From Favolaschia claudopus (taxonomy: Eukaryota > Basidiomycota > Agaricomycetes > Agaricales > Mycenaceae): 64,000 bases of DNA. Positions 7,200 through 62,996 of this stretch are shown piece by piece (within the stretch, counting starts at the first letter, position 1; every line of letters starts with the position of its first letter). Under the pieces are notes generated by a model. The model saw only the letters and a list, made by a program, of their open reading frames with translations. It did no database searches and was not told the DNA's origin. Both the position numbers and the translations under genes were made by a program. The stretch covers positions 1,674,001 to 1,738,000 of the forward strand of contig JAWWNJ010000027.1 in assembly GCA_037176885.1 (NCBI GenBank). Direction: 5' to 3'.

Positions 7200-7612
7200 G
7201 AGGAAGGGAGGCAAGCGACTGCTCTCATGAGTATTTCATCTCCATCGCACGATTTGGCTCTACCTAGCTCGAACTCCACGCCATCAGCACTCCCCGATCC
7301 GGACATTCAAACCGGAACCATAGGCGACTTCCCTCTAGACACTTGGGATGGCTTTCCGGACGGTCGTTTGAAGTGCCATTTCACTCCTCAGCAGGTAGTG
7401 GACACCTCCCAGCTTGCCATCTACTGGGAGGGAGACCGGCTTCAGGGGAAACGCGGCAATCCAGACGCTATCACCCCAGATAAAGGGAAACTATCTCGCT
7501 TCAAATGCGCTGGCATCATTGAGTGCACTGCGACTGTGTGCACGACGCAGATTTTACCAGGAACCGATATATCTCGGCAGACTACATCGCCGTGCAGCTG
7601 CGAGTCTTCTCC
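7200..7612 (+). pseudogene. N-terminal fragment of a MULE-type transposase
   Basis: The plus frame from about 7227 carries DGFPDGRLKCHFTPQQV, then SQLAIYWEGDR, then a cysteine-containing segment (SRFKCAGIIECTATVC, then CSC) spaced like the GCM/FLYWCH-type zinc finger at the head of basidiomycete Mutator-like transposases. The match is from recalled family architecture, not a search. The reading frame is open back to 7014, but the first 60 or so residues look non-homologous. At about 7605-7613 the homology stops and a minus-strand gypsy integrase segment begins. The catalytic domain and SWIM finger are absent, so this is a truncated remnant. Confidence 0.55.
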
Positions 7613-9321: not shown

Positions 9322-10161
9322 AGTTCCCGAAAAGTGGATGGCTGTGCAATGTGCCTACTCTCCCACGGGTACGCCATCAGCTGTGATCTCCCACGGGTAC
9401 GCCATCAATACGTGATGTTAAACAGAGCCTTAGAGACAAGTGGCCTACTGTACAGCGGCGCAATCAGGGGAAAGTGCAATAAAGAAATACTCTCAGCCAA
9501 GGGCTCGCATCAATAGGATGTAATGCCGGTGCCCGGCTTACAGATGAGGGGGAGCTTGCGTTAATTCCGTCCAGACTACACAGAAGTACCGTTACGACAA
9601 AAAAAATCAAAACTGTGCATCAGTCCAATGGAAAAAAGAAAGCTATCTCTCTCGACCTGAGAATCTCAGAAGTTAGACTGAGAGGCCAAGTTTTGTCCTT
9701 AGATCAGCCTTCGATTCACAACTCAAGGCATCTTTCTTGTACATACTGTTGCAGTCCCGGTGAAATTTGCTACCATGAGCTGAATACAGGAATTTGTGCA
9801 GTTTTGACTGCTGGCCAGGTGTCTTTGATTTTTCTTTTTCGGAATTGTGTGAATTGAACTCGACTGCAGCTGCCTTTGTGCCATGTGGTGTCTTTGAAGG
9901 CGGGATGACTCCTTATACTTGATTTCCTGTTGATGCCGGCCCTTGGCTGAGAGTATTCCTTGACTGCATTTTCCCTGAGTGCACCGCTGTACAGTAGGCC
10001 ACCCTGAGGCCAACTTGAGGCCACTCGTCTCAGGTCTGAGTCGTCTCTAAGCCTCCATCACATATTTATGGCGTACCCGTGGGAGAGTAGGCACATTGCA
10101 CAGCCATCCACTTTTCGGGAACCTCAGACAAAAGGGGGGAGCAAGCTCCCCCAATTACTCC
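9322..10161. repeat. Dispersed repeat R1, copy 1, with inverted arms
   Basis: A segment of about 840 bp whose left arm (9322-9510) is an imperfect inverted repeat of its right arm (about 9930-10122). The shared outer sequence is GTTCCCGAAAAGTGG, and the arms also share a palindromic GGCCTACTGTACAGC block. The core and right arm recur almost unchanged at 48986-49645, and a degenerate piece recurs inverted at about 11965-12088. Short open frames in it (for example 9723-10024, minus) are repeat-derived. I cannot assign a class. The inverted arms suggest a foldback or TIR element. Confidence 0.75.
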
Positions 10162-13016: not shown

Positions 13017-13460
13017 TATGCGGCTACATCGAGTGAGTCCGACTACTGAACCCGTTACAGATAGTCCTGAGCTACAGTACCTTCTTCGACCCCTCTTTAC
13101 ATTCGGGAGGGGTAGATGATGTGTGAGTAGAATATTGAGTACATAATGGCACTCAACAACCTGGCTGGTGGACTTGGCAAAAATTTGACAGTCTTTCATG
13201 ATGAAATTCATGACGTTTTGTCATGAATTCATATGCTCAACAACTATTGTAAAAATGGGTTTCTGAGCATCATGAAAGGCATCTTGAATTTCATGATGTG
13301 GTTCATGACAAAACATCAGGAATCTTGAAATTCCTCATTAAGTATTGTTTTGAATTTCATGACAAATACTTCGCACAGTGCAAGTCAAGAGAGTGTACGT
13401 GAACGTGACACTTGGCGTGATGACAATCTATCGCCGGCCGCTTGCAATGTTCCGGGCCGA
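13017..13460. other. ATTTCATGA-rich stretch left of the gypsy element
   Basis: From about 13188 to 13375 the octamer TTTCATGA/TCATGAAA and close variants occur at least eight times in both orientations, with ATTTG...CAAAT at the edges, so this may be a small palindromic element. No gene is seen. Confidence 0.4.
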
Positions 13461-14116
13461 TGACACGCTTGTCTACGTCCTGAGCACGACAGCTCTAAGG
13501 AGAAGACAAGAACAATATATCACGAGTGCTTCAAAATAGATCCAGCGCCGTGACTGGCAACTGGGACCGAGCGCGAGCAAACAAACTAAGGCGAGACGGC
13601 GAGATCGAGCGGAGACGAGGCGTAGGCGTAGGCGTTAGACGAGAGCGGAGGCGGAGACGGCGGCGAGACGAGACGAAACAAAAACTAAATGGTGACTTCC
13701 GAGGTGGGATCAAAAGCTTCGTATTCGTACTCCAAGTACAGAATAAATATGAGAGAACATGTGAAAACCAGTAGATAGATGAATAATTCGAGTCCATGTG
13801 GAATAAAGAGCCAAGGTGGGAGAGAAAGAGCTGCTTTGAGGAAATCCAGGAGGTCGACAGTGCGTTGATCTCCAGGAACAGGCAGTGCAGAAAGATGAGA
13901 TAGAGTTGAGCCAATGAAAAGAAAGAGAAAGGGCCGAAGACCCGAGTGAGACTCGTGCCAACGGGGCGGGACCGCGCGGTCGATGGTGGTGGTAGCGATG
14001 AAAGGTGCGGAGCGGCGTGCGGGTCGGTGATCCGTGATGAGTCGGAAGCTCTTGACAAACAAACAGCATCTCCTGGCTTGTCATTCTACACGCGTAGCGC
14101 GCGAGCGTGCGCGTCA
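13461..14116 (-). repeat. 3' LTR of the gypsy element
   Basis: In element orientation it runs TGACGCGCACG...GTGTCA. It is the near-identical partner of 18730-19385. The GA-rich tract (GGCGAGACGG, GAGGCGTAGGCG repeats near 13590-13680) and several long shadow frames lie inside it and are not genes. Confidence 0.92.
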
Positions 14117-14269: not shown

Positions 14270-17200
14270 CTATTCGTCGTCTATGACGGCGGCGGCGGTT
14301 TCGGGAAGCTCGGAAATATTAAACTCGACGTCCTCTGGGTCCTCAACAGTCGTCTGTTCAAGTTCGCGAAGGCGTTCCGTGTCGATGTCAAGGAAATCTT
14401 CAAGCGGCGGCAAATCAATTTTGGTACGCGCAAAATACGGGATAACGCGTAAAGCTGCGATTGGGCGATGGAAAACAGAGCCGTCAAGTTCGCAGAGGAT
14501 GTAGGCTCCTCCAAGGTTGCGGGAAATCACGATAAGTGGGCCTAAATATCGCTTGCGCATTTTCTTGCTGAATGATTTTTCAATCGCAGTGTTTCGCATC
14601 AAGACCAAATCACCGCGTTTGAAGTTGTAGTCACGGATAGTAGCAGCGTGTTCGATTTCAAAACGAATAGCAGCACGAAGGCGAGCCTCAAGTACGTTCG
14701 AATGCAGGTTCGCGAGCTGATCGCGGCGTTTCTGCAGTGCAATCGCACGTCGAGCGATGAGATCCGTGGTGGAGAGAACGGAATCAGGAGGGGGAAGGAG
14801 GTATGTGGCTTCAGATATGTCGAGGGGTAGCAGGGGATGCGTGCCGGTGACTGCAAAATACGGTGAGCAACCCATTCGGCGACGAACGGTAACACGATCT
14901 GCCCAGAATACTGAATGTGTCGCAGTATGCCACTTAGATTGGTCCCCGTCAACAGCTTTGAAAATACTCTCGCGAACATCGAAGTGTGGGCGTTCGATAA
15001 GGCCGTTTGCGCGCGAGTTGTAACCAGAGATTCGAATATGACGGACGTGGTATTTGGATTCAAGGTGAGCAAGGGCTTTCAGGAATGGTGGTCCGTTATC
15101 TGTAACGATTTCGATTAAGGTCCCCCAGCGACAGATTAGATCCTGGAAAATCCAGTCTCCAATTGCGCTAGCGACTTCTCGACGAAGCATACGGAATTCG
15201 GGATAATGGGTGAGTGAGCAGCGGCCGTGCACGATATATTTGAAGCCGCCGCTAGTAGGCATGTGCATTGTGTCCATATAGACTTTGGCGAAGATTGGAG
15301 CGGGCGTTGCGACGGTAGGTGGAATTAAAAGCTTCTGAGTAGAACGAACTTGACAAATATGGCAGGTATTAATCCACCAAGTAATATCGTCAGCGAGGTG
15401 CGGCCACCAGAAGCGTTCGGTGAGTAAGGCTCGTGTAGCCCAGAAACCTTTATGACCAACGTCGTCGTGTGCGGAGGTGAGGATGAAAAGTCGGCGATGA
15501 GTCGGAACAACGAGTTTGTGGCGAGACTGAGGGTCCTTTCGCCAGAGTTGGTCGCGCGCAAGGTAAAATTCCATGCAATATCGAACGAAAGATTTATATT
15601 CTTTGTCAGACATGTCGCGAGGCCGTTGGAGGTTTCCATGCCATACACGCACTAAATCAACGCGCGCATCAGCGAGTCGAGCAGGGTCGGATCGGGGCAC
15701 GATGTCGTAGGAGAGGGAAGGCGGCGGGTCCTGACCATCGGGGGCAATTTCGGCGGCCAGTGTAGCGACGGTGGATTGAGGTCGGCGAACATAAGGTGAG
15801 TCGTTTATTTGATGCATGAAACCGTGAACCTGATCGATCCAGTCGTCAAAGTCGTCTTCAGGTTCCGGTTCATCACCAGGCTGGGGAGGTCGACGAGAGA
15901 GGCCGTCGGGGCCGTGGAGAACTCCGGGGACGTGTACGAGAGTAAAGTGGAATGTGAGTATCGATAGAATCCAACGATTTATGCTGGCGCTTGGCTGGAG
16001 ATCAGGGTGTGCAAGCATTCCCTTGATATAACGAGCATCGACTTCAACGACAAGGTTGCGAATGCCTATCAGATAGATTTTCCATGAACGAAGCGCGCGG
16101 AATAAACCGTAAAGTTCGAGTTTGGAACGAGACTCGCGGTCGTTGAGGGTTATCGAGCCGAAACGAGCGTAGTATCGGCGGGAAAGGTTGGCGGGATCGC
16201 ATTGGCATAGCATGAACCCAATAGCCAGTCCAGAAGTATCAACACCGAGGATAGCGGGGGAAGGGGATTTATAGTCAATGGGACGGAGGGCAGGTGAGTG
16301 AATGAGTGCTTGTTTTAAATCTTCCTGAGCTTCGATTTGAGCAGGGCCAAACATGAATGGCATGTCTTTGCGAGTGAGGAGAATGAGGGGATGTGCGCGA
16401 TGGGCGAAGTTGCGGATATAGATGCGCACAACACCAACGGTGCCCAGGAAAGCGCGGACTTCGGTGAGAGTGCTGCAAGGTCCCCAGTTGACAATTTTAT
16501 CGACGCGTTTGTCGTCAGGGATACGACCTTGATGTGTGCAGACGTGGCCAACTTCGTACGAGCCGTCTGGAAGGATGTAGCAGTCTGCGGGACCACAACA
16601 AGGTACGTCGTCGATATAGGGAATAGTGAACTCGGGGATTTCGGGTTGGAGAATAAATGTGACGTCTTCATGGAATATTGGGACGGAATTGGTCCATCCC
16701 ATGGGAAGGGTGACGAGTCGGAGTGCGCCATACGGCGTTTGAAAAGTGGTGTAGTCACGGGAGGAAGGGGCGAGGAGGCGTTCATCATAACCAACATATA
16801 GGTCAAGAATCGCGCCGCACGCGCGCCCAGCAAAATGTTCAGCAAGTTGGTCGGTAAACGGGGTGACTCCTGAATGCTGAATAGTGACGGCGTTCAGTGG
16901 TTCGAGAGCGTGAACGAGTCGAAGGCTGGTGCCATCCTTCTTGACAACACAAAACCAACGCGATCGGTACGACGAGTTAGAGGGTTCGTATACGCCGGCT
17001 TCAATATTCGTGCGAATAACTTTACAGACTTCGTCATAAATCCCCGGAGGGATGGGAATGTTCCGTTGAACCCAAGGTGTGTGCGGCATTACGGGCATAT
17101 CGACGGGTGGAAAGAAATCGGTACGGAAGCGGCCGCGTTCGGAATCCTGCCACGCGAAGGCCTCATTCTGCAAACACATAAAGTGGTGCATCAATTTGCG

Positions 17201-17776
17201 CTCTTCGGGCCACAGGAAATCTTCTGAATGAAGGGCATCGAGGGCATCACGGCGTTCAGCAGTATAACGGCCGGTGGGAACGAAGGGAGGTGGATTGGGG
17301 TTGAGAGCGGGCATCTCATGAGCAGCGAGAGGTTCGCCATAAATATGGCGTTCAATGCGGAATTTATTAGGTAGAGTACCCAATACTGGACGGACTTTCT
17401 GCGCGACGGGTTTATATTTCTTCTTCGCATAGATTTCGACAAGCGGAGGCGGGGTATATTTGGGAGAGAATTCGGAGAAGTCGAATCGAGACGAGTTGAT
17501 ATTTGGAACGGAGCGAGATGTAGAGATTGGAAATAAAGGAATTAATTTATCACCGCGAGTTGAATCGCGTGAAGAGAATATCGGTTGAATGATAGCATGC
17601 GCAAATTGTACAGTGTTCGCGTCTTGATCTAAATTTGAACAGGCAGAGAGGTAGGCATGTTGAATAAAGGGGAGGGTGTCCGATGCGAGGGCCGATGTTG
17701 ATTCGATAACAAATTTTCCAGGTTGTTGTGGGTCTTCGACAATGACGACCGCAAGCTCTCCTTGATCAGTGATCAA
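14270..17776 (-). CDS. Ty3/gypsy pol polyprotein (RT, RNase H, integrase)
   Basis: A single open frame of 1,168 codons. Residues about 245-400 are reverse transcriptase, with the first catalytic Asp in LDLYVGYDER (about 325-334) and YIDD at about 387. The connection/thumb has RAFLGTVGVVRIYIRNFA. RNase H spans about 509-620 (GVDTSGLAIGFML, KLELYGL, VEVDARYIKGML). The integrase HHCC finger is HDDVGH...CHIC (about 770-808). The catalytic triad is D835 (YMDT), D893 (VTDNG) and E928 (GLIER). A GPY/F-like module (KRYLGPLIVISR) follows, and an acidic C-terminus ends it. In relatives I know, roughly 45-50 residues separate the GSYE motif from GHxCxxEGR; here GSYE and VGHVCTHQGR adjoin (about 406-417), so RT probably carries an in-frame deletion and may be inactive. 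The start codon is nominal, because the polyprotein normally continues from protease. Confidence 0.93.
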   Translation of the reverse strand: MITDQGELAVVIVEDPQQPGKFVIESTSALASDTLPFIQHAYLSACSNLDQDANTVQFAHAIIQPIFSSRDSTRGDKLIPLFPISTSRSVPNINSSRFDFSEFSPKYTPPPLVEIYAKKKYKPVAQKVRPVLGTLPNKFRIERHIYGEPLAAHEMPALNPNPPPFVPTGRYTAERRDALDALHSEDFLWPEERKLMHHFMCLQNEAFAWQDSERGRFRTDFFPPVDMPVMPHTPWVQRNIPIPPGIYDEVCKVIRTNIEAGVYEPSNSSYRSRWFCVVKKDGTSLRLVHALEPLNAVTIQHSGVTPFTDQLAEHFAGRACGAILDLYVGYDERLLAPSSRDYTTFQTPYGALRLVTLPMGWTNSVPIFHEDVTFILQPEIPEFTIPYIDDVPCCGPADCYILPDGSYEVGHVCTHQGRIPDDKRVDKIVNWGPCSTLTEVRAFLGTVGVVRIYIRNFAHRAHPLILLTRKDMPFMFGPAQIEAQEDLKQALIHSPALRPIDYKSPSPAILGVDTSGLAIGFMLCQCDPANLSRRYYARFGSITLNDRESRSKLELYGLFRALRSWKIYLIGIRNLVVEVDARYIKGMLAHPDLQPSASINRWILSILTFHFTLVHVPGVLHGPDGLSRRPPQPGDEPEPEDDFDDWIDQVHGFMHQINDSPYVRRPQSTVATLAAEIAPDGQDPPPSLSYDIVPRSDPARLADARVDLVRVWHGNLQRPRDMSDKEYKSFVRYCMEFYLARDQLWRKDPQSRHKLVVPTHRRLFILTSAHDDVGHKGFWATRALLTERFWWPHLADDITWWINTCHICQVRSTQKLLIPPTVATPAPIFAKVYMDTMHMPTSGGFKYIVHGRCSLTHYPEFRMLRREVASAIGDWIFQDLICRWGTLIEIVTDNGPPFLKALAHLESKYHVRHIRISGYNSRANGLIERPHFDVRESIFKAVDGDQSKWHTATHSVFWADRVTVRRRMGCSPYFAVTGTHPLLPLDISEATYLLPPPDSVLSTTDLIARRAIALQKRRDQLANLHSNVLEARLRAAIRFEIEHAATIRDYNFKRGDLVLMRNTAIEKSFSKKMRKRYLGPLIVISRNLGGAYILCELDGSVFHRPIAALRVIPYFARTKIDLPPLEDFLDIDTERLRELEQTTVEDPEDVEFNISELPETAAAVIDDE

Positions 17777-18247: not shown

Positions 18248-18729
18248 TCACGATCGTAGACTTGGAGCCGAGACATCCGTGCACCAAGATGTCTGTGATC
18301 CATGACACTGGTCCTCGTTGGAAAAGTTACGGATTGTGCTTTGTGTCAATACATCGAAGGGACGTCCCAGCAGAACATCGTAGGCGGGATTGCGGACAAT
18401 GTGGACTTGGAGATAGAGAGTGATGTCGCCAATACGGAAAGGTACGTTCCGAGCAAGTCCAAGCGAAGGACTAACCGCGCCGTTCGCAGATTGCATTCGA
18501 AGAATGACGCGCGGGTCGTACGAAAGAGCTAGTTCATGACAAACGGCTTCAGACATAGCGATGATCTGACAGCCGCCGTCGATAATGCATTCAACTTGCT
18601 GCTGGTTGTCGATGATTGGTAGGATCGAGCGGATGGCTGAGGACTCCATCGAGACGATAAGATCCTCAGGAGCACTTCCGGAATCGTAGTAAACCGCCAG
18701 GGGATCGGGAACGACCGTACCGCCTGCAA
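18248..18729 (-). pseudogene. Retroviral-type aspartic protease fragment of the gypsy element
   Basis: The frame runs from the LTR edge (18729) through DPLAVYYDSGSAPE, then SILPIIDNQQQVECIIDGGC, QIIAMSEAVCHEL and YLQVHIVRNPAYDVLLGRPF, the order seen in fungal gypsy proteases. The catalytic D-T/S-G triplet reads D-G-G here, which is unusual. After 18248 about 300 bp of unrelated sequence intervenes (to about 17945). Then a second protease-tail-like piece appears in a different frame (about 17900-17810, ITICDPNSGKTATVPTVPRG) before pol begins. The protease-pol junction is thus interrupted or duplicated. Upstream gag is missing. Confidence 0.8.
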
Positions 18730-19385
18730 TGTCACGCTTGTCTACGTCCTGAGCACGAAAGCTCTAAGGAGAAGACAAGAACAATATATCACGAGTGCTT
18801 CAAAATAGATCCAGCGCCGTGACTGGCAACTGGGACCGAGCGCGAGCAAACAAACTAAGGCGAGACGGCGAGATCGAGCGGAGACGAGGCGTAGGCGTAG
18901 GCGTTAGACGAGAGCGGAGGCGGAGACGGCGGCGAGACGAGACGAAACAAAAACTAAATGGTGACTTCCGAGGTGGGATCAAAAGCTTCGTATTCGTACT
19001 CCAAGTACAGAATAAATATGAGAGAACATGTGAAAACCAGTAGATAGATGAATAATTCGAGTCCATGTGGAATAAAGAGCCAAGGTGGGAGAGAAAGAGC
19101 TGCTTTGAGGAAATCCAGGAGGTCGACAGTGCGTTGATCTCCAGGAACAGGCAGTGCAGAAAGATGAGATAGAGTTGAGCCAATGAAAAGAAAGAGAAAG
19201 GGCCAAAGACCCGAGTGAGACTCGTGCCAACGGGGCGGGACCGCGCGGTCGATGGTGGTGGTAGCGATGAAAGGTGCGGAGCGGCGTGCGGGTCGGTGAT
19301 CCGTGATGAGTCGGAAGCTCTTGACAAACAAACAGCATCTCCTGGCTTGTCATTCTACACGCGTAGCGCGCGAGCGTGCGCGTCA
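18730..19385 (-). repeat. 5' LTR of the gypsy element
   Basis: Near-identical to 13461-14116; I see three substitutions (T/A at 18732, A/C at 18769, A/G at 19204, against the other copy). In element orientation it ends ...GTGACA at 18730, where protease-leader coding sequence begins directly. No sequence resembling a tRNA-complementary primer-binding site follows. Confidence 0.92.
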
Positions 19386-24891: not shown

Positions 24892-25492
24892 AGATAGAGA
24901 GCGTGGGATCCCCGCACCTTACTTAAGCACGTTATGTAACGCTTATTAATCGTTCCCACGGCCAAATCCCCAGTCGCACAAAAAATTTCGTGCTCTTTCC
25001 GGCCTGCGGAAGGGCTGACCTACAGACTTAGAAGGCATTCTCGCTGTTTCGGCTCTGAAATTTTGGTCTTCGGTTTGAAAAGCACCTTCCACACTGCAAG
25101 GAGGTTCTGTCACTCATTGCGCCGCAAAGGTTTGACAGGTCCCACCCTTAAGCGAGCTGCCGAAGCATGCCGAGATGACTATCCTGTGGCTGTGCTGGAC
25201 AAATTTTCCTCCGAAATTTTTGAAAAGTGTCCCATTTGGTGAGAAAACCACATAGAAACACTCAGAAAAAAAGTGGTCTGAATTTTTTTGTGGGTCATAT
25301 AGCAAGAGACCAGGGGACATTTTGGCAACTCTGCCCAATAGGAACCCTTCATTGAACCTCTATCTAAGACTTGTATTGGGCAAAATTCCCAATCTGGACC
25401 TTAGCATCGTGCTATAAGCCCTCGACGTCGAGCGTGACAATGTCACAGTGTGATGCTGACATAAGGGTGCGGGGATCCCACGCTCTCTATCT
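24892..25492. mobile_element. MITE family A, copy 1
   Basis: A 601-bp element with inverted repeats AGATAGAGAGCGTGGGATCC(CCGCAC), flanked by TA (24890-24891, 25493-25494). A near-identical copy lies at 43553-44148 and a fragment at 50978-51069. The small minus-strand frame at 25338-25114 is identical in both copies but has no recognisable domain and is probably not coding. Confidence 0.88.
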
Positions 25493-37285: not shown

Positions 37286-37791
37286 TATGCTGTTCGTTTT
37301 GTAAAAAAAATCAAAACCCCTTATGATGCAAGTGTACCTCATATACTTGAGTGTGAATAGAGCTTCAGGTCGCAATATGGTGTGTATAGCTTGACGAGAC
37401 GGACAATATATAGTGTGAGTTAGCGGTCAATATATATTGAGTCACTCAATATATTGTGAATGACACTCAATATATTGTGCAAATTTAACAAGCTATAGGA
37501 TTTGTATCTGGCACAGCGAGCGGGCCCTCCCGCCGGCCGTTTGACGCTGTACTCGGTTTGTCCCGCCGCCAGCGGCGCCGTCGTGCGACCCAGTGCACAA
37601 GGCTCGGACTTCTCGGGGATCTCCGGACCGAGTTCTGCCAGCAGCTTTCCGGGCGTGCCGCGATGATGTCAATGCTGTAGATTTCTTTTTACTTAGCAGC
37701 ATTGGCGTCATGAGCGGCGCCAGCGAACCAGGGGCCGCTCCGTGTGTACAAGAAATTGAATGCTATTAACAAAAATTAAACTGACGGGCTA
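37286..37791 (+). repeat. Left terminal inverted repeat (506 bp)
   Basis: Exact reverse-complement partner of 42525-43030 as far as I can read. A subterminal array of palindromic CAATATATTG and related CAATATATA units occupies about 37407-37480 and is mirrored in the other arm. Such arrays often bind transposase. The 72-codon frame in the repeat is duplicated only because the repeat is, and I do not call it a gene. The last codons of the BTB-like gene overlap the inner 16 bp. Confidence 0.92.
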
Positions 37792-38496
37792 CCTGCCAAT
37801 ATCATGTAAACCGGCCAGCCCATTGCTTGTACATCGACCTCTTGGAGCTGAGTCACCCTGCTCGTAAAGATGTCCGCGACGCCACTGTTAATCCATTTGT
37901 TAATGCTGAATCTGCCTCCCAGCTGAATACGGCGCGATGGGGGGAGGGGGATCCCATCCAGAACCTTGACTGCGTAATCCGTCGCAACAGGGATCTCCCA
38001 TTTATGCGCTAGTTTCATCAGGTGAGTACAGATGCGTTCGCGCTCGATGTCATCGTTGCCCAGAGCCTGCCACTCCCTAGGCGTATTTCAGAATAAAGTG
38101 CAGTGGGCAAGCGATACCACTCACGCGCGGTAGATCCATTGCAACAAATCGTCGAACTCGCTGACAGTTGTCCCGGGGAGGAAGAGGGGATACGCTTCAG
38201 TTCCTTCGCGAGTTGGATCATTTTTCTCTTTCCCGTCGGGAATGGTGATGAGACTGTTGAAGATCTCGGACAGCTTCTGGAGCATGGTGATGTGTACGTT
38301 GTAAATGGTCTTGTCATCGACCTGGGGAACGGACTCAATCTGTGAGAGTATTGTTTTTCACGAAAAATCTCACTCGAATTACTATTGAGCCGTCGGAGTA
38401 CCAGAACGTGGAATGCCTTTGGAACTGACCAATGTTCTTGACGACTCCTTGTCTATTGTAATTGTCCAAGGCCATCTTGTCGTTGTCGGTGCTCAT
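37776..38496 (-). CDS. BTB/POZ-like protein encoded in the TIR element
   Basis: Three exons join in phase on the minus strand: 38496-38374, 38339-38125 and 38076-37776, giving 639 nt (212 residues plus stop). The introns are 34 nt (38373-38340, unusually short) and 48 nt (38124-38077), both GT...AG. The protein starts MSTDNDKMALDNYNRQ and has QFQRHSTFWYSDGSIVI, KTIYNVHITMLQKLSEIFNS and VSEFDDLLQWIYR, the layout of the diverse BTB-like domains of mushroom genomes, followed by a helical C-terminal half (LMKLAHKWEIPVATDYAVKV). BTB domains mediate protein-protein contacts. The role here is unknown and could be regulation of transposition. The start codon faces that of the integrase gene 77 bp away. 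The C-terminal codons lie in the left inverted repeat. Confidence 0.75.
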
Positions 38497-38573
38497 AGTG
38501 AGTGGCGCAACAAACAAATTTACTGTTGCCAACTTCGGCTGTCGGCTCTAAATTTGGTCTGCTTCCTTCCACT
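38497..38573. promoter_or_regulatory. Putative bidirectional promoter between BTB-like and integrase genes
   Basis: Only 77 bp separate the two divergent start codons (38496 minus, 38574 plus). The interval must contain at least parts of both 5' leaders. I see no clear TATA box. The call rests on gene arrangement alone. Confidence 0.5.
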
Positions 38574-40578
38574 ATGTCGCGTCCACTTCCTCCTCTCCCC
38601 GAGCCGGAAAACGAGCCCTGGTCTGCAAATGTGCATGCAGCATATGAGCTCATGTCAGGCACCTTCCGCTCCGCGTCTTCAGTACTCAGTCAAGACGCTG
38701 ACGCCAAACGTCTTGAATTTCACGCTCAACACGCAACAAAAGAGCTGTTGCCAATACTTAAAGCATTCGAAGCACATGCAGAAGAAGAGCACATCCCTAT
38801 GCCATGGGTGCTTGACTGCACTGAAGCTGTCGGTGAATTAATTTTCAATCTCTGTCAGGCACAGGAATTGGCGTCGGAAAGGTATGCGGAATTGTTTACG
38901 CAAAACTAGATCCAAACTCAAATGGAGTTCAGACAGGAAAGTCATGTACATTTTGCCTCCTCAGTGACCGTCATCCGCATGGGGAAGAGAGGCCGCCCTC
39001 GTAAAGAGATCAACCCAGAGTTGCTTGCTGAGGCGATGGCTTCTCACCGTCGTATCTCAGTTGCAGCACTCGCCCGTGCTATGGGTGTCAGCCGGCCCAC
39101 TTTAATTGATCAGATGAAGAAACGTGGGGTTCACAATGATTTCACTCAGTTATCGAAAGCTGATCTCGATAAACTGGTGAGGTCTTTTCGCAAAGCAAAG
39201 CCAGATTCTGGAATCAGATACCTTATCGCTGCCATGGCGTCCGCGTTCAAAAACGTCGCGTGTTTTCATCTGTCCGCCGCGTTGACGGAATTGGCCGGAT
39301 TCTGCGCCAGCGCCGCATTATCGAACGCGGCAAATACCAAGTTTCCCGGCCGCATGCGCTATGGCATATTGACGGCCACCACAAACTCATTCTTTGGGGT
39401 ATTGTTATTCACGGAATAGTGGATGGGTACTCTCGGACGGTATTTTTTCACGCTTTTGGGAATCAATATTCATTGACTGACCACTGTCAGATAACTGGCT
39501 TGCGCGCCAGTACTAACAACCGCGCTTCAACAGTGCTTGATGTATTCCTTGAAGCTGTTGGCAAGTACGGACTTCCATCCCGTATGCGCGGAGACCGTGG
39601 TTCAGAGAACAAGAAGGTCTCCGTGTACATGATTTTGAAGCGGGGCCTTGGTCGCGGGTCATTCATTTGGGGGTCGTAAGTCACTTTCATATATAATACA
39701 GTGCATTGTGCGTAACCACCTTATTACAGATCCACAACCAACACGAAAATCGAGCGGCTCTGGGTTGAGGTTGGCTCTCAATTTGCTCGACGCTGGAGAG
39801 CCTTCTTTTATCGCCTCGAGGCTCTTCATGGTCTGGATCGGGGTAACCCCCACCACTTGTGGCTTCTCCATTTCTTATTTCTCGATCTCATCAACGAAGA
39901 CTGCGACAGCTTTCGCTCAGAATGGAACTGCCATCCAATTTCAGGCGAAGGTCATGACCAAAGCCCTGAGGTACGGTTCATGATTGAATTAACATTGTTT
40001 GCACAATAATTGACAATTTCCGATAGGAGATGTGTTTTATGGGCCGGTTACAGAATGGTTTTTATGACGAGGACTGCAACGGGGTCCATCCCAATGTCCT
40101 CGAGCGCTATTACGGTACTCATGGTCGTGAACGTCAACGGGCTGCTGGGGAAACAGGCGCTGGTCAACTCGAAGATGAAGAGATTTCCAATCCACCCAGC
40201 GCCACCGGAAGCCAGTCGGACGATACGCAGAGCCTGGAGGAACGGATCGCAGAGGCGCACGAAGACAATTTCCATCATGAGGCAGTTGCCGTTCCAAAGC
40301 ACGCTAATCCATTCGATGATGACGACTCGATGCAACTGTTCTACGACACCCTCGAGGCTGCGATCCAAAACAATGTTGTTCCGCACGGGTACGGGCTCCA
40401 GTCGGATGAGTGGGGAGAGGATGGATATCCCAGTTTTGAAATTTTGAAGTCAGGGCGTCATGGTTCAAAGCGCCTGCGAATTGCTCTCCCAGATTTCATT
40501 TGGCGACCACGAGCAGAGATGTGGGGGCGAGCGTTGGCTATATTAGACCAGATCACATACAGAAATGAGGCACAATGA
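38574..40578 (+). pseudogene. HTH-integrase (DDE) transposase gene with one frameshift
   Basis: Exons are 38574-38881, 38933-39439, 39491-39675, 39730-39970 and 40027-40578. The four introns of 51-56 nt are all GT...AG. Exon 1 encodes a helical N-terminus ([16 protein letters not shown]...). Exon 2 has KRGRPRKEINPELL and a helix-turn-helix (ISVAALARAMGVSRPTLIDQ). The catalytic core shows LWHIDGHHKLILWGIVIHG (first D), RMRGDRGSEN (second D) and TKIERLWVEV (E), with 34 residues between the last two. The C-terminal part has WRAFFYRLEALHGLDRGNP, LFLDLINEDCDSF and NGVHPNVLERYYGTHG. Total phase is off by one nucleotide: between GIRYLIAA and HGVRVQKRRVFSSV (about 39230-39250) one base appears to be missing. 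Everything else is open. This architecture matches the rve-like integrase proteins common in Agaricomycetes. Confidence 0.85.
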
Positions 40579-40654
40579 GATAGAATCTTATTCTTGGAGC
40601 ATCGCGACGCATAAAGTTTTTTCGACAGCTCGGAAATCACTCCAAAATTGACTG

Positions 40655-40750
40655 ACACACCATTTTTTTCTCGTTCTTTCTCTCTTTCACCCAGCCAACC
40701 ACCCACCCACCCACACTCTCTCCTTCTTTCTTTCTTTCTTTCCTCCTCAT
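40655..40750 (+). promoter_or_regulatory. CT-rich tract upstream of the 421-aa gene
   Basis: A pyrimidine-rich leader with CACCCACCCACCCA and TTCTTTCTTTCTTT runs ends just before the ATG at 40754. CT-rich stretches are typical of the core promoter/5' leader of well-expressed fungal genes and support the chosen start. Confidence 0.5.
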
Positions 40751-40753
40751 CAT

Positions 40754-42346
40754 ATGGCCTCCACCTCCACCTCTCAGGTGCGAGCTGTCGAGTGCATTGC
40801 ACAAGACAGAGATTCCGACGATGAGTGCACCTGTACCGAGTATCGTCCACTCGGAGACCTGGGCATTTGTGCGCAACCGAACTGTTTACACAAAAAAAAA
40901 TACCACGTTGCAGTGTCGTCGAAGAAAGGGAAAGACGTAGACAGCATTCTCGAGAGAATTGCCAACAAAGGCTCTGGAAGCTCCGCGTCATCTTCAATGC
41001 TAGCCAAAATCGGTAAAGCCCGAACTGGACTCACTTCGTCTGGCGCAAAAAAATCTCGCAAGACCCGAGCAGCCGCAAACCTCGAGTCCAACCAGGGAAT
41101 GCGACCAAAAAAAAACAAGGTAATGCTCACTCGGCCAGCATTTCATCAGCTTAACATCACCCAAGCACAAACAGACCCAGAGCACAAGTAACAATTTCCG
41201 TGTTGGCTCGATTACGATTTTGCCGTGTGGTACAATATGCTCGGTGGGTTTTGATCCAGCTTTATGGGCTACAGTGTGCTTACCTTTCCTCTCAGAATGG
41301 GATGCGTCAATTGCCAAAGAAGAATCGTCCCATTCCCGGTAGGCCGGCAGTCCAATTGGCTGTTGTTCATGGCCTTGCTGTGGTGGATATTACACATGGA
41401 ATTTCGATTGACCGGACAGCGGACCACGACGAGCTCAAAGATAGGCTTCACGAATTATTTCCACAGCCGTTTGCCTATTTCGATCGCATCGAGGCGGAGT
41501 CTGACTCGAAAGAGCCTGTATGGTGGTTGGGGACGGTCAATAGCAAACAACTACAAATTGCTCCTGTAACTCACCCAACTGGGGCGGATGCCGAATACAA
41601 CAAAGGAGCTACTACAAGTGGATTCCGCCACTGCCGCCTCTTCATTGGTAAGTTCATCCGCTGCGACGTGTCATCTATACTAATGAGAAACGTAGTTTCG
41701 AACCAACCCATACCCAAAGAAATCCTCGATACTTGGGTTGATGAAGAGACACTTGCCGCACTCCAGGGCGGCAACAGTGAGTTTTTTCTCTGTGGTTTTG
41801 TCTGGCGCTTCGAGAGCTTACAATTTGCTCAGAGAATATCCAGTCTGACAACGATTCGGAAGGGAGTGACTCCGAGTCCGAGGATGAGGAGCCTCGCAGC
41901 AGCAGCGTAGAGCCAATCCCCATCAGTATCCGAGTCCCTGTCCTTCGGTCAAAACGTAGATCAGACACGGGCGAAGAGGAAAGGGCTACGAAGAAGAAGA
42001 AGCGTGCGTGTATGAATTTGTAGTCCATGCTTGAGGTATTGATTCCGACCCCAGTGTCTGCTGACAGTGCGCTTCCGGAAATTTTCAAGGACAGTGTTGC
42101 CCAAGAAATCATCGGTACGTGGATGGTACTTTGTACGACGGACCTCATATACTTACCTGAGGCTGGTCAGGCAACGGTGTCGAAAACGGCTTGATTGATC
42201 TCACCGCTGAGACTGACGACCAACTTGAAACGGTGATCCGTCAAAAGACTCCTTCCCCTGCACCAGCACCTCCTACACTATCCCCCGAATTCAAGGTTGA
42301 CTCGTCGCTCGGGGACCCATATGCGACCAGGGTCTACGATTGCTAA
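40754..42346 (+). CDS. 421-residue accessory protein of the TIR element
   Basis: Seven exons (40754-41119, 41175-41243, 41296-41647, 41696-41776, 41833-42007, 42068-42114, 42171-42346) separated by six GT...AG introns of 48-60 nt sum to 1,266 nt with no stop, which is strong support. The N-terminus has a Cys/His cluster (ECTCTEY...ICAQPNCLHKKKYH), possibly a small zinc site, then basic stretches (KKSRKTRAA, RPKKNK). The middle contains RPAVQLAVVHGLAVVDITHG, DELKDRLHELFPQPFAYFDR and WWLGTVNSKQLQIAP. The C-terminus is acidic and Ser-rich (SDNDSEGSDSESEDEEP) followed by a basic KKKKR patch that may be a nuclear signal. I recall similar proteins beside integrases in mushrooms but know no function. 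It may be a transposition partner. Confidence 0.78.
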
Positions 42347-42524
42347 GGTTGGGATCTTGGACAATGTTTGAACTGATGTGGACATCGTACTAGTAGTTAC
42401 CAGTGTTTTTGCTTTGCTCTTGCCCCTCATTTTTTTTCTCAAACCGGACATTCACTCGCCTTACCTAGACTCTCTCGGACATCTTGCTATACCCACACTT
42501 TCCTTTACCTTTTCCACCGTATCT

Positions 42525-43030
42525 TAGCCCGTCAGTTTAATTTTTGTTAATAGCATTCAATTTCTTGTACACACGGAGCGGCCCCTGGTTCGCTGGCGCC
42601 GCTCATGACGCCAATGCTGCTAAGTAAAAAGAAATCTACAGCATTGACATCATCGCGGCACGCCCGGAAAGCTGCTGGCAGAACTCGGTCCGGAGATCCC
42701 CGAGAAGTCCGAGCCTTGTGCACTGGGTCGCACGACGGCGCCGCTGGCGGCGGGACAAACCGAGTACAGCGTCAAACGGCCGGCGGGAGGGCCCGCTCGC
42801 TGTGCCAGATACAAATCCTATAGCTTGTTAAATTTGCACAATATATTGAGTGTCATTCACAATATATTGAGTGACTCAATATATATTGACCGCTAACTCA
42901 CACTATATATTGTCCGTCTCGTCAAGCTATACACACCATATTGCGACCTGAAGCTCTATTCACACTCAAGTATATGAGGTACACTTGCATCATAAGGGGT
43001 TTTGATTTTTTTTACAAAACGAACAGCATA
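42525..43030 (-). repeat. Right terminal inverted repeat (506 bp)
   Basis: Mirror copy of 37286-37791, including the CAATATATTG array at about 42838-42910. Outside it the flank (CAGCGGTCCC) shows no duplication of the left flank (TTTTCATA). Confidence 0.92.
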
Positions 43031-43552: not shown

Positions 43553-44148
43553 AGATAGAGAGCGTGGGATCCCCGCACCTTACTTAAGCACGTTATGTAA
43601 CGCTTATTAATCGTTCCCACGGCCAAATCCCCAGTCGCACAAAAAATTTCGTGCTCTTTCCGGCCTGCGGAAGGTCTACAGACTTAGAAGACATTCTCGC
43701 TGTTTCGGCTCTGAAATTTTGGTGTTTGCTTTGAAAAGCACCTTCCACACTGCAAGGAGGTTCTGTCACTCATTGCGCCGCAAAGGTTTGACAGGTCCCA
43801 CCCTTAAGCGAGCTGCCGAAGCATGCCGAGATGACTATCCTGTGGCTGTGCTGGACAAATTTTCCTCCGAAATTTTTGAAAAGTGTCCCATTTGGTGAGA
43901 AAACCACATAGAAACACTCAGAAAAAAAGTGGTCTGAATTTTTTTGTGGGTCATATAGCAAGAGACCAGGGGACATTTTGGCAACTCTGCCCAATAGGAA
44001 CCCTTCATTGAACCTCTATCTAAGACTTGTATTGGGCAAAACTCCCAATCTGGACCTTAGCATCGTGCTATAAGCCCTCGACGTCGAGCGTGACAATGTC
44101 ACAGTGTGATGCTGACATAAGGGTGCGGGGATCCCACGCTCTCTATCT
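43553..44148. mobile_element. MITE family A, copy 2
   Basis: Near-identical to 24892-25492 with the same AGATAGAGAGCGTGGG termini. TA follows the right end (44149-44150), but the left neighbour is TG, probably a substitution in the target duplication. The copy is missing a few bases (GCTGAC) present in copy 1 near 25012. Confidence 0.87.
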
Positions 44149-44176: not shown

Positions 44177-44580
44177 CAGTGTTCGCCCGAAGACCGAAGG
44201 CCTTAATTCGTTAAGGCCTTATTAAGGCCTTAATTAAGACCTTAACGATTTCGAATCCATTGCGGCAGACCTTAGTTAAGGCCTTAAGGCCCCGGGGTCC
44301 CCGGTTTTCAAGGCGATGACAAGGAATTTACTCGCCAAGTTGTTTGTTTGAGTGATCTCGAGGACGAATGTGCAAAATTACCGCTGCGAGTACCTAAAAT
44401 CATCGTCGGTGCTGGTCGGATCCCGTCGGGAGGACGATGCGGGAGTGATGCCAGCGCTGCCGCCGGCCGTGGGAAATTCGGCTTAAGGCCTTAAGCTGCC
44501 CTTAAGAATTAAGGCCTTAGACCTTAATAAGGCCTTAAGACTTCCGGGACCCTGGAATTAAGGCCTTAAGGCGAACACTG
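44177..44580. mobile_element. hAT-type MITE with 8-bp target duplication
   Basis: A 404-bp element with CAGTGTTCGCC...GGCGAACACTG ends flanked by identical CAAAACGG (44169-44176 and 44581-44588). Both subterminal regions are packed with AAGGCCTTAA palindromes, which would be candidate transposase-binding sites. The 8-bp duplication and CAGTG start are hallmarks of hAT elements. Confidence 0.9.
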
Positions 44581-44646
44581 CAAAACGGAGATATAGCGGC
44601 CCACACAAATTCGAAATGCATTGAGGAAACCTTGACCTGTGCAATA

Positions 44647-46018
44647 GGGTGTTTCAGATATCTCGATTCAAGGGGGTGTCGGGATTAAAATTTCGGATAT
44701 ACGGTCGATAAGGCCTTGGACTGACCCCCCCTCCCCCCCTCCCCTCCTATATAGGGTAATGATTTCCCACAGTTGTCATCAAGCCGCTTTGCCGATTTTC
44801 CGGCAACTGCCGAAGTACCCCATTTTCTATGTTTGTTTTTTGGGCGTGCACCAGGCAGATAATATTATGTAGAGCCTCCTTTGAGGCTAGTAATACGAGT
44901 ATACACTGTGAGACTTATTTGAAAGCCTAAAGCCCATTGCCTGTTCCACTCGAGTACTACCAGTCAACCAATTCTTCACTCATTCAATCACCTTTCAATG
45001 AGGTTTCAGTATCAACGGTATCGGCATGAATAATGGCCCAGACTAAGATACAGTCAGTAGGTGTAGCTTGACATCTCCTGCAGCACAACGCAACTCAATG
45101 CAGATACTTCAGGTTTTGAAAAAGAATTTGCTAAACTGACACTGTGATGCTACTGATTCGGCGTGCGAAGTTGAACCAAATGCGGGAAATTTACCGTCCC
45201 TTCGACCGTGTTCGCCTCTTGAACCAAAATAATGTGCTGATGCAGGGCAAGTGTCATTTTATGTGTCCCTCTGAGCTCTGAGAGCATTATGAGTAAGTAC
45301 CCCCCACAAAATTTTTTAAGGACCTCCCGGGACCCCCCCTCCCCCCCCACCCCCGGTACGAAATTTTAATCCCGACACCCCCTTGTCTCCATTTTGGTCC
45401 AACTTTGAGTCCGACTTTGGTCCCAACTTGGTCCCAACTCGAGGTCCGATTTCAGAAGTTGCGATCAAAGTTGGTACCGAGAACTTTGAAACACCATTGC
45501 CCAATTTCTTCACAAGGTTGCAAACAAGTTGCGCAACTTGGAGGGCGTGGGATCAGAAATAGTCCTGCTTGCACCTCCCGGATAGAATCGGAAGACACTC
45601 GGGGTAAGTCCGTAGGACATATGCACTCAAGTCTGGCAATTCTCACAGATTTTGTAATCAATTAAGCGCTAATTACTTGCATCTCAAGAGACAACAAATG
45701 AGGAACTTTATAATTTATTATCTACGAGATTTTTTTTTTCTGCTTATAACAGGGTAAACAGCACAACAAGAACACAGTCAAATAAACTCGGGCCGCATGT
45801 ACGGGCACGGCAACATCCGAATAGCCGAAGTTGAGAGGTAAGTTGGAAAGTGAAAGTTGGGAGGAAAGTTGGATGTCAGGTCGTGGTCTTGTGCACGACC
45901 TGACATCCAACTTCGAAATCGGCATCGAATTCGGACTTCCGACTTTCAAAGTCGGGCCTCAAGTTGGAACGAAAGTTGGACACCAAGTTGGACCAAAATC
46001 GAGATATCTGAAACACCC
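44647..46018. mobile_element. TA-flanked inverted-repeat element, GGGTGTTTCAG termini
   Basis: A 1,372-bp element with ends GGGTGTTTCAGATATCTCGAT and its complement, flanked by TA (44645-44646, 46019-46020). Internal inverted sequences include GGGGGTGTCGGGATTAAAATTTCG-type blocks (44672 and 45355) and CCAACTTTG/CAAAGTTGG-rich patches (45395-45490 and 45940-46000). A C-run low-complexity patch lies at 44727-44745 and 45333-45355. No transposase ORF is present. Confidence 0.75.
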
Positions 46019-48985: not shown

Positions 48986-49645
48986 TGTAATGCCGGTGCC
49001 CGGCTTACAGATGAGGGGGAGCTTGCGTTAATTCCGTCCAGACTACACAGAAGTACGACAAAAAAAATCAAAACTGTGCATCAGTCCAATGGAAAAAAGA
49101 AAGCTATCTCTCGACCTGAGAATCTCAGAAGTTAGACTGAGAGGCCAAGTTTTGTCCTTAGATCAGCCTTCGATTCACAACTCAAGGCATCTTTCTTGTA
49201 TTACTGTTGCAGTCCCGGTGAAATCTGCTACCATGAGCTGAATACAGGAATTTGTGCAGTTTTGACTGCTGGCCAGGTGTCTTTGATTTTTTTTTTCGGA
49301 ATTGTGTGAATTGAACTCGACTGCAGCTGCCTTTGTGCCATGTGGTGTCTTTAAGGGCGGGATGACCCCTTATACTTGATTTCCTGTTGATGCCGGCCCT
49401 TGGCTGAGAGTATTCCTTGACTGCATTTTCCCTGAGTGCACCGCTGTACAGTAGGCCACCTTGAGGCCAACTTGAGGCCACTCCGAACTCGTCTCAGGTC
49501 TGAGTCTAAGCCTCCATCACATATTGATGGCGTACCCGTGGGAGATCACAGCTGATGGCGTACCCGTGGGAGAGTAGGCACATTGCACAGCCATCCACTT
49601 TTCGGGAACCTCAGACAAAAGGGGGGAGCAAGCTCCCCCAATTAT
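48986..49645 (+). repeat. Dispersed repeat R1, copy 2
   Basis: Near-identical to the core and right arm of R1 at 9517-10161, but without the inverted left arm. Its right arm keeps a short tandem duplication (GATGGCGTACCCGTGGGAGA twice, 49527-49570) that copy 1 has only in its left arm. It truncates the ORF1-like gene. Confidence 0.85.
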
Positions 49646-60908: not shown

Positions 60909-62996
60909 AGGCGTGAAAAAGAATATGAGGATTTTGCTCAGACACTGCGGAAGAGGTCTACCCCATATTATGGTGATGATGACGATGATGGTGAACCGGA
61001 CACTTTGCATCACCCAATACGTATACCAGGTTCAGTGGGGGATAATCTAAGTCAGGCTGATCCGCCGTCTATTGTCCATCCATCAAATAGGGGAGCTCCA
61101 CCATTGCGCAAGGTCGCAGGTGTACGACAGGAACCTACTAGGCGGTCAACACGTCCACATGCAAGGGCACAACATCCCACCGCTGAGTACGACAGAATAG
61201 CTGAAGGACCACAGCATCAGTCAAAAGCTCAGCGCGATGCAGAGAATGAAGCACGTAAACAGGCAAAAGAAAATGAAGCTTCTGATGAACCAGACATTGA
61301 AGTCCCTGACGCTCCAGAGGCAGTCTTGCTTGCTTCTCTAGATGATGCTATTGAAGAAGCCTTTTTGGCTCAGAACCCTCTCGACCCTTCTAGTTGGCAA
61401 GAGGCATTGCAGGGTCCTGATGCTGAACATTGGAAAGCTGGACTTGAAGAGGAACTTGCTGGATTCAGAGCAAATGACGTCTATGATGTTGTTCCCATAC
61501 CAGACGGTGTCAAGCCTATTAAATCTAAAGTGGTTCCCAAAGTCAAAGTGGATGAAACAGGCAAAATTGCTCGTTACAAAGTCCGAATCGTTGCCAGAGG
61601 AGATACTCAGAAAGAAGGTGTTGACTACAAAGAAGTTTTTGCGCCCACTGCCAATCCTGAGTCTGTTCGCATCATTTGTGCTCTTGCTGCCAAATACGAC
61701 TTAGAACTGGATCAGCTGGATGTTTCACAAGCCTACCTCAATGGTAAACTGGAGGAAGAAATCTACATGATGCCTCCGGAAGGTGTTGAAATTCCAGAAG
61801 GTCACTGCTGGCGACTCAAGCGATCATTGTATGGTCTTAAACAAGCTGGGAGAACTTGGAACAGGACCTTTGACACGATTCTAAAACTCGGATTTCATCG
61901 CTTGAATTCAGAGACCTGCCTTTATGTTTATAAAGAAGGCAACCAGACTTGTTTTGTTGTGGTCTATGTTGATGATCTTCTTGTTGCTGCAACTTCTAAA
62001 GAATTCTCTTCCAAAGTCAAAAGAATGCTTTCATCTACTTTTAAAATGCGAGACCTGGGTCCAGCCAAATACCTCCTTGGGATCGAGATCATTCGAAACC
62101 GTAAGAAGCGCACCATTGCACTGAACCAGCGTCAGTATATTGACAAAGTCCTTTCTCGCTATGGCATGACAGACTGCAAACCTGTATTCACACCTATGTC
62201 TACTGGAACCCCTCTCACAGAGAATGACCCTGATGACGACAGTATCATTACCCATATGGCTATTGTCGAAGGTGGAGCTATTGTTCCATATTAAAGTGTA
62301 ATCGGGTCTGCTATGTATGCCATGCTAGGTACTCGACCAGATCTTGCATACAGTGTAGGAGTACTTGGTCGATATAGTGCGAAGCCAAAGATCTAGAGAA
62401 TTCATTGGGCAGCAGCAAAACGACTTCTTCGATACCTCAAAGGCACCCGTCATTGGGAACTTTTATACAACGGGGCCGACATCAGCATGGACATGCAATT
62501 TCTGGGATACAGTGATGCCAATTGGAATGGAGACAGATCTAGAGATACATCTCGTTCTACTTCTGGTTATGTGTTCATTGTCAACTCTGGAGCAATCGGA
62601 TGGTCTAGCCGTCGGCAATCCATGGTCGCTCTATCTTCTACTGAGAGTGAATACATTGGACTTGCAAATGCAGGACAACATCTAGCATGGTTAAGATCCT
62701 TTTTTGACGAACTAGGTCAACATCAGAGAAATCCCACTGAGTTGAGATGTGATAATCGAGCTGCCATTATTCTGTCCCAGGATCCACAATACCGCGCTAG
62801 GACTCAGCATATACAAAGAAAATATCATTTTCTTCGTGATGACTTGGTTCGCACTGGAGAATGTATTGTCTTGTGTTATCCTACAGATGAAATGGTGGCC
62901 GATATTTTCACAAAACCTTTATCTCATGACAAGCACTCCAAATTCTGTCTATCTATGGGACTACGGCCTGGGTCGAGTGGGGGTGTCAGAATATGA
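60909..62996 (+). pseudogene. Ty1/copia pol 3' half (RT and RNase H) with two stops
   Basis: The frame opens at about 60909 (REKEYEDFAQTLRKR), passes a charged linker, and enters reverse transcriptase: PKVKVDETGKIARYKVRIVA, LDQLDVSQAYLNGKLEEEIY (catalytic D), SLYGLKQAGRTWN and VVYVDDLLV. RNase H follows: FLGYSDANWNGD, SSTESEYIGLANAGQHLAWL, LRCDNRAAIIL, and the end GLRPGSSGGVRI. TAA at 62292-62294 and TAG at 62394-62396 lie in the same frame. Relatives have Gln at the first stop position, so C-to-T changes could explain both. Gag, protease and integrase are absent upstream. The stop codon at 62994-62996 overlaps the LTR start, as is usual for copia elements. Confidence 0.9.
62975..62983 (+). 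other. Polypurine tract of the copia element
   Basis: The purine-rich GAGTGGGGG directly precedes TGTCAG, the LTR start, as expected for the plus-strand primer. Confidence 0.65.

Follow-up and report, generated by a model that had tools for sequence, protein, structure and literature searches.

A probable IS3EU-type transposon with two accessory genes in Favolaschia claudopus and a copy with rearranged ends

Introduction

Among the described DNA transposons, those closest to the element reported here are the IS3EU elements, which have TA..TA ends, usually produce target-site duplications (TSDs) of 6 bp and, in the portion of the source consulted, are characterised as being without the HHCC motif (PMC10045372). 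For Ginger1 and Ginger2 elements, TSDs of 4 or 4–5 bp are given there (PMC10045372). In the rusts (Pucciniales), the consulted sections describe IS3EU elements with TAYGG..CCRTA ends, terminal inverted repeats (TIRs) of more than 30 bp, 6-bp TSDs and accessory genes encoding a TET/JBP demethylase and an alpha-kinase, the latter running opposite to the transposase (PMC12730594); the word BTB is absent from the main text of that paper.

The element described here lies in a 64,000-nucleotide stretch of the Favolaschia claudopus genome, which as a whole is called "the window" and corresponds to C27:1674001-1738000. With IS3EU/GingerRoot elements, it has in common TA..TA ends, 6-bp TSDs, an rve-type DDE transposase and an HHCC motif that is not found; it differs in a BTB-like and a third gene, neither of which is described in the portion of PMC10045372 consulted. 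The rust elements likewise combine conserved accessory genes, one of them antiparallel to the transposase, with 6-bp TSDs and TIRs above 30 bp, and their TAYGG ends resemble the TATGG end of one remote relative (L044); however, in the sections of PMC12730594 consulted, the accessory genes are different ones, and the ends of the window subfamily read TATGC, not TAYGG. Ginger1 and Ginger2, as far as they are covered in the portion of PMC10045372 consulted, share the rve-fold DDE catalytic core, whereas the F. claudopus TSDs are 6 bp long and a zinc-binding integrase match is absent from the transposases scanned. By its anatomy—i.e., ends, TSD and transposase type—the element would belong to IS3EU, which was the second guess of a first-pass annotation of this DNA and is supported by the published end and TSD features. 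While the superfamily is known, what appears to be new is a mushroom branch with BTB-like and Cys/His-acidic genes: no description of IS3EU with such genes was found in the literature searched, Repbase entries may exist, and a literature search on transposon, BTB and transposase in Agaricomycetes returned no published work.

The window copy, which is damaged and has rearranged ends, very likely derives from a cut-and-paste DNA transposon of the IS3EU type in Mycenaceae, with a complete three-gene unit of ~6.2 kb. This unit consists of a DDE transposase gene, a divergent BTB-like gene whose product has a C-terminal Cys-His-Cys-Trp motif and a Cys/His-acidic gene, which follows the transposase gene downstream and includes a SIM-like motif. 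Non-transposase genes that are kept by selection in a DNA transposon show how an element must act on its host in addition to cutting DNA; this opens the testable question of the recruitment of ubiquitin-ligase or SUMO machinery by transposons.

Layout of the Window Copy

The whole element copy (37286-43030, unstranded) is 5,745 bp long, has TATGCTG..CAGCATA ends and is flanked by TTCATA and CAGCGG. Its left arm (37286-37791, plus strand) and right arm (42525-43030, minus strand) are 506 nt each, are separated by 4,733 nt and are complementary at 100%, which confirms the perfect inverted repeat reported by the first-pass annotation. Other inverted repeats listed in the same 10.5-kb stretch have at most 31 nt, and the arms are thus far beyond chance. 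Between them, the three spliced genes that had been claimed are present, though two of them in damaged form: the BTB-like gene (37776-38496, minus strand; exons 38374-38496, 38127-38321 and 37776-38075; annotated protein P0121), the DDE transposase gene (38574-40578, plus strand; exons 38574-38881, 38933-39439, 39491-39675, 39730-39970 and 40027-40578) and the third gene (40754-42346, plus strand; 7 exons, 424 aa).

The BTB-like protein has lost ~115 C-terminal residues, its match reaching residue 207 of 322, and its final residues and stop are supplied by the left arm. In the transposase gene, a 10-bp deletion relative to the copy L010 disrupts the frame near 39228, so that the integrase described earlier as "off by one" base does contain a real break, with this deletion as its cause. 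The open reading frame of the third gene is intact and closes as had been claimed, yet at 1,275 nt including the stop rather than at 1,266 nt.

A search with the arm, which had been proposed as a check, revealed at least 46 matches, including both window arms, in the 264.6-Mb F. claudopus genome (40 of 92 first-look candidates scored), and the single arms found mostly lacked a partner in the surrounding stretch read. A chance inverted duplication of host sequence is ruled out, the arm being found again elsewhere with the same genes.

Complete Relatives, Ends and Target Duplications

Two complete copies, L038 (C20; 6,221 bp) and L040 (C34; 6,207 bp), contain all three genes in the order and orientation seen in the window, have TIRs of ~40 bp and show perfect 6-bp TSDs, TCAACA and GGCGCG, respectively. 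In L040, another sequence resembling the right end occurs at 7349, 0.9 kb farther out and without a matching flank. The short relatives L021 and L022, for which none of four protein queries gave a match, have 6-bp TSDs as well (GCGAAG and TAGGGA). TATGC..GCATA is found at both ends of the window copy, L009–L011, L021, L022, L038 and L040; the target duplication, whose derivation had been suggested, could thus be read as a perfect 6-bp TSD in four of the eight two-ended copies (L021, L022, L038 and L040), 6 bp being the sole length tested. It is lacking in the window copy, L009, L010 and L011, the last three of which represent one insertion.

A scan for ends with a 6-bp TSD, in which L038 and L040 were picked up again and 1 of 20 shuffles produced a chance match, found none in L036, L037, L039 and L041–L044. 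In L044, the right end was read as CCATA (i.e., a TATGG end) at the point of divergence from L046; a left end was looked for in this copy and not found. A TATGG sequence is present in L047 also. Judged from this anatomy and from the published family, the transposase would cut at TATGC..GCATA and insert with a 6-bp stagger.

Long Relatives of the Window Subfamily

The subfamily of the window copy includes L009 (8,128 bp), L010 (9,026 bp) and L011 (8,134 bp), the genes of which are ~96–98% identical to those of the window and which have an extra ~2 kb at the left end. Since they share common flanks and are 98.9–99.8% identical to each other, they were counted as one insertion in three copies; a 6-bp target duplication is absent from it. 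The TIRs of L010 are ~420 bp long and ~85% alike. All three copies have an early stop in the third gene, and the L010 transposase has frame breaks, so among the copies read, the subfamily of the window copy and L009–L011 has no undamaged member.

Within the right flank of L010, positions 9570-9958 match the interior of the short elements L021–L023. The L010-type relative could accordingly sit inside an older relative or be joined to one, and its lack of a target duplication might stem from this. Two additional segments of L010 (~0.44 kb and ~0.9 kb) were rejected as lost element parts, since by eye they look like later insertions: L010:3740-4178 resembles a small transposon with 8-bp repeats (TGCCAACT) and 18-bp inverted ends, and L010:7206-8098, which among L009–L011 only L010 has, resembles another, flanked by TA and with inverted ends of 28 bp. 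Beside the left end lies a fragment of a host gene, that of the proteasome subunit RPN1 (L010:1435-2203), hence a fourth element gene at this end is ruled out. The RPN1 piece is likewise present in L009, L011, L012, L016, L017 and L020, has 12 matching genome sites and falls within the stretch that is missing from the window copy.

Co-Occurrence of the Three Genes

Searching the genome with the BTB-like protein yielded 80 matches and, by our own count, 22 loci at E < 1e-30, of which 12 were read together with two weaker ones (C222 and C54:1414706). A divergent transposase adjoins the BTB-like gene at 11 of these 14 loci (window, L009, L010, L011, L036, L037, L038, L040, L041, L042 and L044), and all three genes are present at seven (window, L009, L010, L011, L036, L038 and L040), with L009–L011, as one insertion, not being independent in either count. 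In L037, L041 and L042, the transposase matches concern the N-terminal half only and the third gene is absent. At the remaining 3 of the 14 loci—L039 (C54:278877), L043 (C180:158086) and L045 (C54:1414706)—no transposase match was obtained near the BTB-like gene in the stretch read. L039 and L043 look like copies of one another, and the L045 protein keeps the C-terminal Cys-His-Cys-Trp motif; these genes may represent remnants, or else host genes belonging to the same family. The first-pass annotation had named integrase copies lacking the arms or the partner genes as evidence against its reading; such copies were found with respect to the long arms, not with respect to the partner genes.

In L044, a remote BTB-like gene (27%) stands head-to-head with a transposase that is 86–95% like P0042. 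Given that P0042 is 45% identical to the window transposase and belongs to another clade, the occurrence of the pair there suggests that the pairing of BTB-like gene and transposase is old.

The Three Proteins

The transposase is of the rva_4/rve type, with a PF24764 match (E 2e-55; L010 copy, Pfam), a weak PF00665 match and an HTH-like N-terminus; the integrase zinc-binding (HHCC) model gave no Pfam match in the transposases scanned. At least 15 of 16 sequences retain the catalytic D, D and E residues. A quick tree of transposases, restricted to 89 rows of homologues from the transposase protein search, places its 18 rows from Favolaschia and 37 from other Mycenaceae in several mixed clades.

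The label "BTB-like" derives from names in UniProt and from a fold match of modest strength (Foldseek, best E 0.4), not from Pfam: none of five proteins examined (that of L010, P0123, P0124, P0127 and P0130) has a PF00651 match above the cut-off, the best score below it being that of P0127 (E 0.19), and a PDB profile search with the alignment gave one match, to a non-BTB protein (E 0.2). This sets the protein apart from the BTB-BACK adaptors (SPOP, NPR1, KBTBD and KLHL), as may its C-terminal Cys-His-Cys-Trp motif. By pattern search, C-x2-H-x2-C..W..W..HP is found in 10 of 15 homologues. The five others (P0121, i.e., the window's own protein, P0122, P0125, P0126 and P0133) appear shortened or altered there in the alignment; in the window protein, the motif was cut off by the join.

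The third protein comprises an N-terminal Cys/His region, an acidic stretch, the SIM-like motif IDLT and a conserved C-terminal LSPEFKVDxSLGxPY. Homologues in four Mycena species are 38–61% alike over the alignment. The predicted structure has a mean pLDDT of 35.

Selection on the Accessory Genes

Identity between L038 and L040 is 84.7% across the aligned sites and 78.2% outside the exons used. For this one pair of copies, dN/dS (Nei-Gojobori, 95% bootstrap range) amounts to 0.06 (0.03–0.10) over 274 codons of the BTB-like gene, 0.07 (0.05–0.09) over 602 codons of the transposase and 0.13 (0.08–0.20) over 366 codons of the third gene, with gap and stop codons dropped and the first BTB-like exon as well as small exons excluded. 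In L040, the length of one transposase piece cannot be divided by three, which points to a possible frame break in this copy. In the last exon of the third gene, dS is 0.02, because of which the dN/dS there (0.29; 0.00–0.73) says little; gene conversion is possible in this exon. In L038/L040, purifying selection thus acts on both accessory genes as well as on the transposase, which argues that both serve the element and suggests that it may bring its own helpers. Together with the 6-bp TSDs of these two copies, this bears out that the three genes travel together.

Alternatively, the BTB-like and third genes could be hitchhiking host genes, useless to the IS3EU element. The 8–9 kb relatives and others did capture a host RPN1 piece, to which the two genes would then be comparable, and BTB-like copies without a transposase exist (L039, L043 and L045). 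We nevertheless consider this unlikely: against it stand the dN/dS values of L038 versus L040 (0.06 for the BTB-like gene and 0.13 for the third gene), the gene order and orientation that are fixed in these copies, the third-gene homologues in four Mycena species (38–61% alike) and the BTB-like gene paired with a distant transposase clade in L044.

If the accessory genes indeed serve the element, the BTB-like protein may recruit machinery of the host, for which the role of a Cul3-type adaptor is the most likely one, whereas a nuclear co-factor or an anti-silencing factor may be encoded by the third gene. A more far-reaching proposal, which we put forward tentatively and regard as rather doubtful in its full extent, is that the BTB-like/CHC gene is an old second gene of a mushroom IS3EU branch, standing head-to-head with the transposase in clades that are only ~45% identical, and that the element would thus encode both a ubiquitin-ligase adaptor of its own and a nuclear factor that binds SUMO, by which host silencing would be disarmed or transposition steered.

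Origin of the Perfect Arms

The right arm of the window copy is the native right end of the subfamily (~93–94% identical to the right ends of L009–L011 over 505 bp); the left arm is an inverted copy of it in place of the native left end. L009–L011 have a different left end, and the BTB-like C-terminus is cut by the join; therefore, the window copy is a derived form, in which ~2 kb at the left was lost and the inverted right-end copy took its place, resulting in perfect 506-bp arms. At the junction (37788-37800, unstranded), read from the sequences, a 2-bp overlap (TA) common to both sides and a few filler bases are followed by the BTB-like gene. Among the copies read, such a replacement is seen in the window copy only. 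Breakage of the left end was probably followed by repair in which the template switched to the right end, and the resulting element would be unable to make its own transposase. The window copy may thus serve as an example of how one end, copied onto the other, produces perfect long inverted repeats.

An assembly artefact, in which the inverted end was copied by the assembler, would account for arms that are 100% identical, for the absence of a TSD and for a junction seen in one copy only. It is quite improbable, however, considering that the filler bases and the 2-bp overlap resemble repair and that 4.7 kb separate the arms on a single long contig. P0121 crosses the junction and stems from the same assembly; therefore, it gives no independent support against an artefact.

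That the 506-bp repeats define a new long-TIR superfamily, as the first-pass annotation had considered, is highly improbable and was not borne out: perfect arms around the three genes are, among the copies read, confined to the window copy and reflect an end duplication, whereas the complete relatives have TIRs of ~40 bp (~420 bp and ~85% alike in the 8–9 kb relatives), 6-bp TSDs and TA..TA ends as in IS3EU, as far as the latter is described in the consulted portion of PMC10045372.

Other Repeats in the Window

A long minus-strand frame at 14270-17776 contains reverse-transcriptase RNase H and integrase zinc domains; with the 300-bp direct repeats that flank it (13460-13759 and 18729-19028; 99% alike), it constitutes an LTR retrotransposon. 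A Copia-type reverse transcriptase frame (PF07727) is located at 61005-62294. One further repeat, 99% alike in its two copies, is found at 24892-25319 and at 43553-43975, the second copy lying ~0.5 kb beyond the right end of the element, and palindromic repeats like TTAAGGCCTTAA are clustered at 44211-44726. Finally, 9519-10157 and 48986-49644, which are ~39.5 kb apart, share several blocks of 97–100% identity in the same order.
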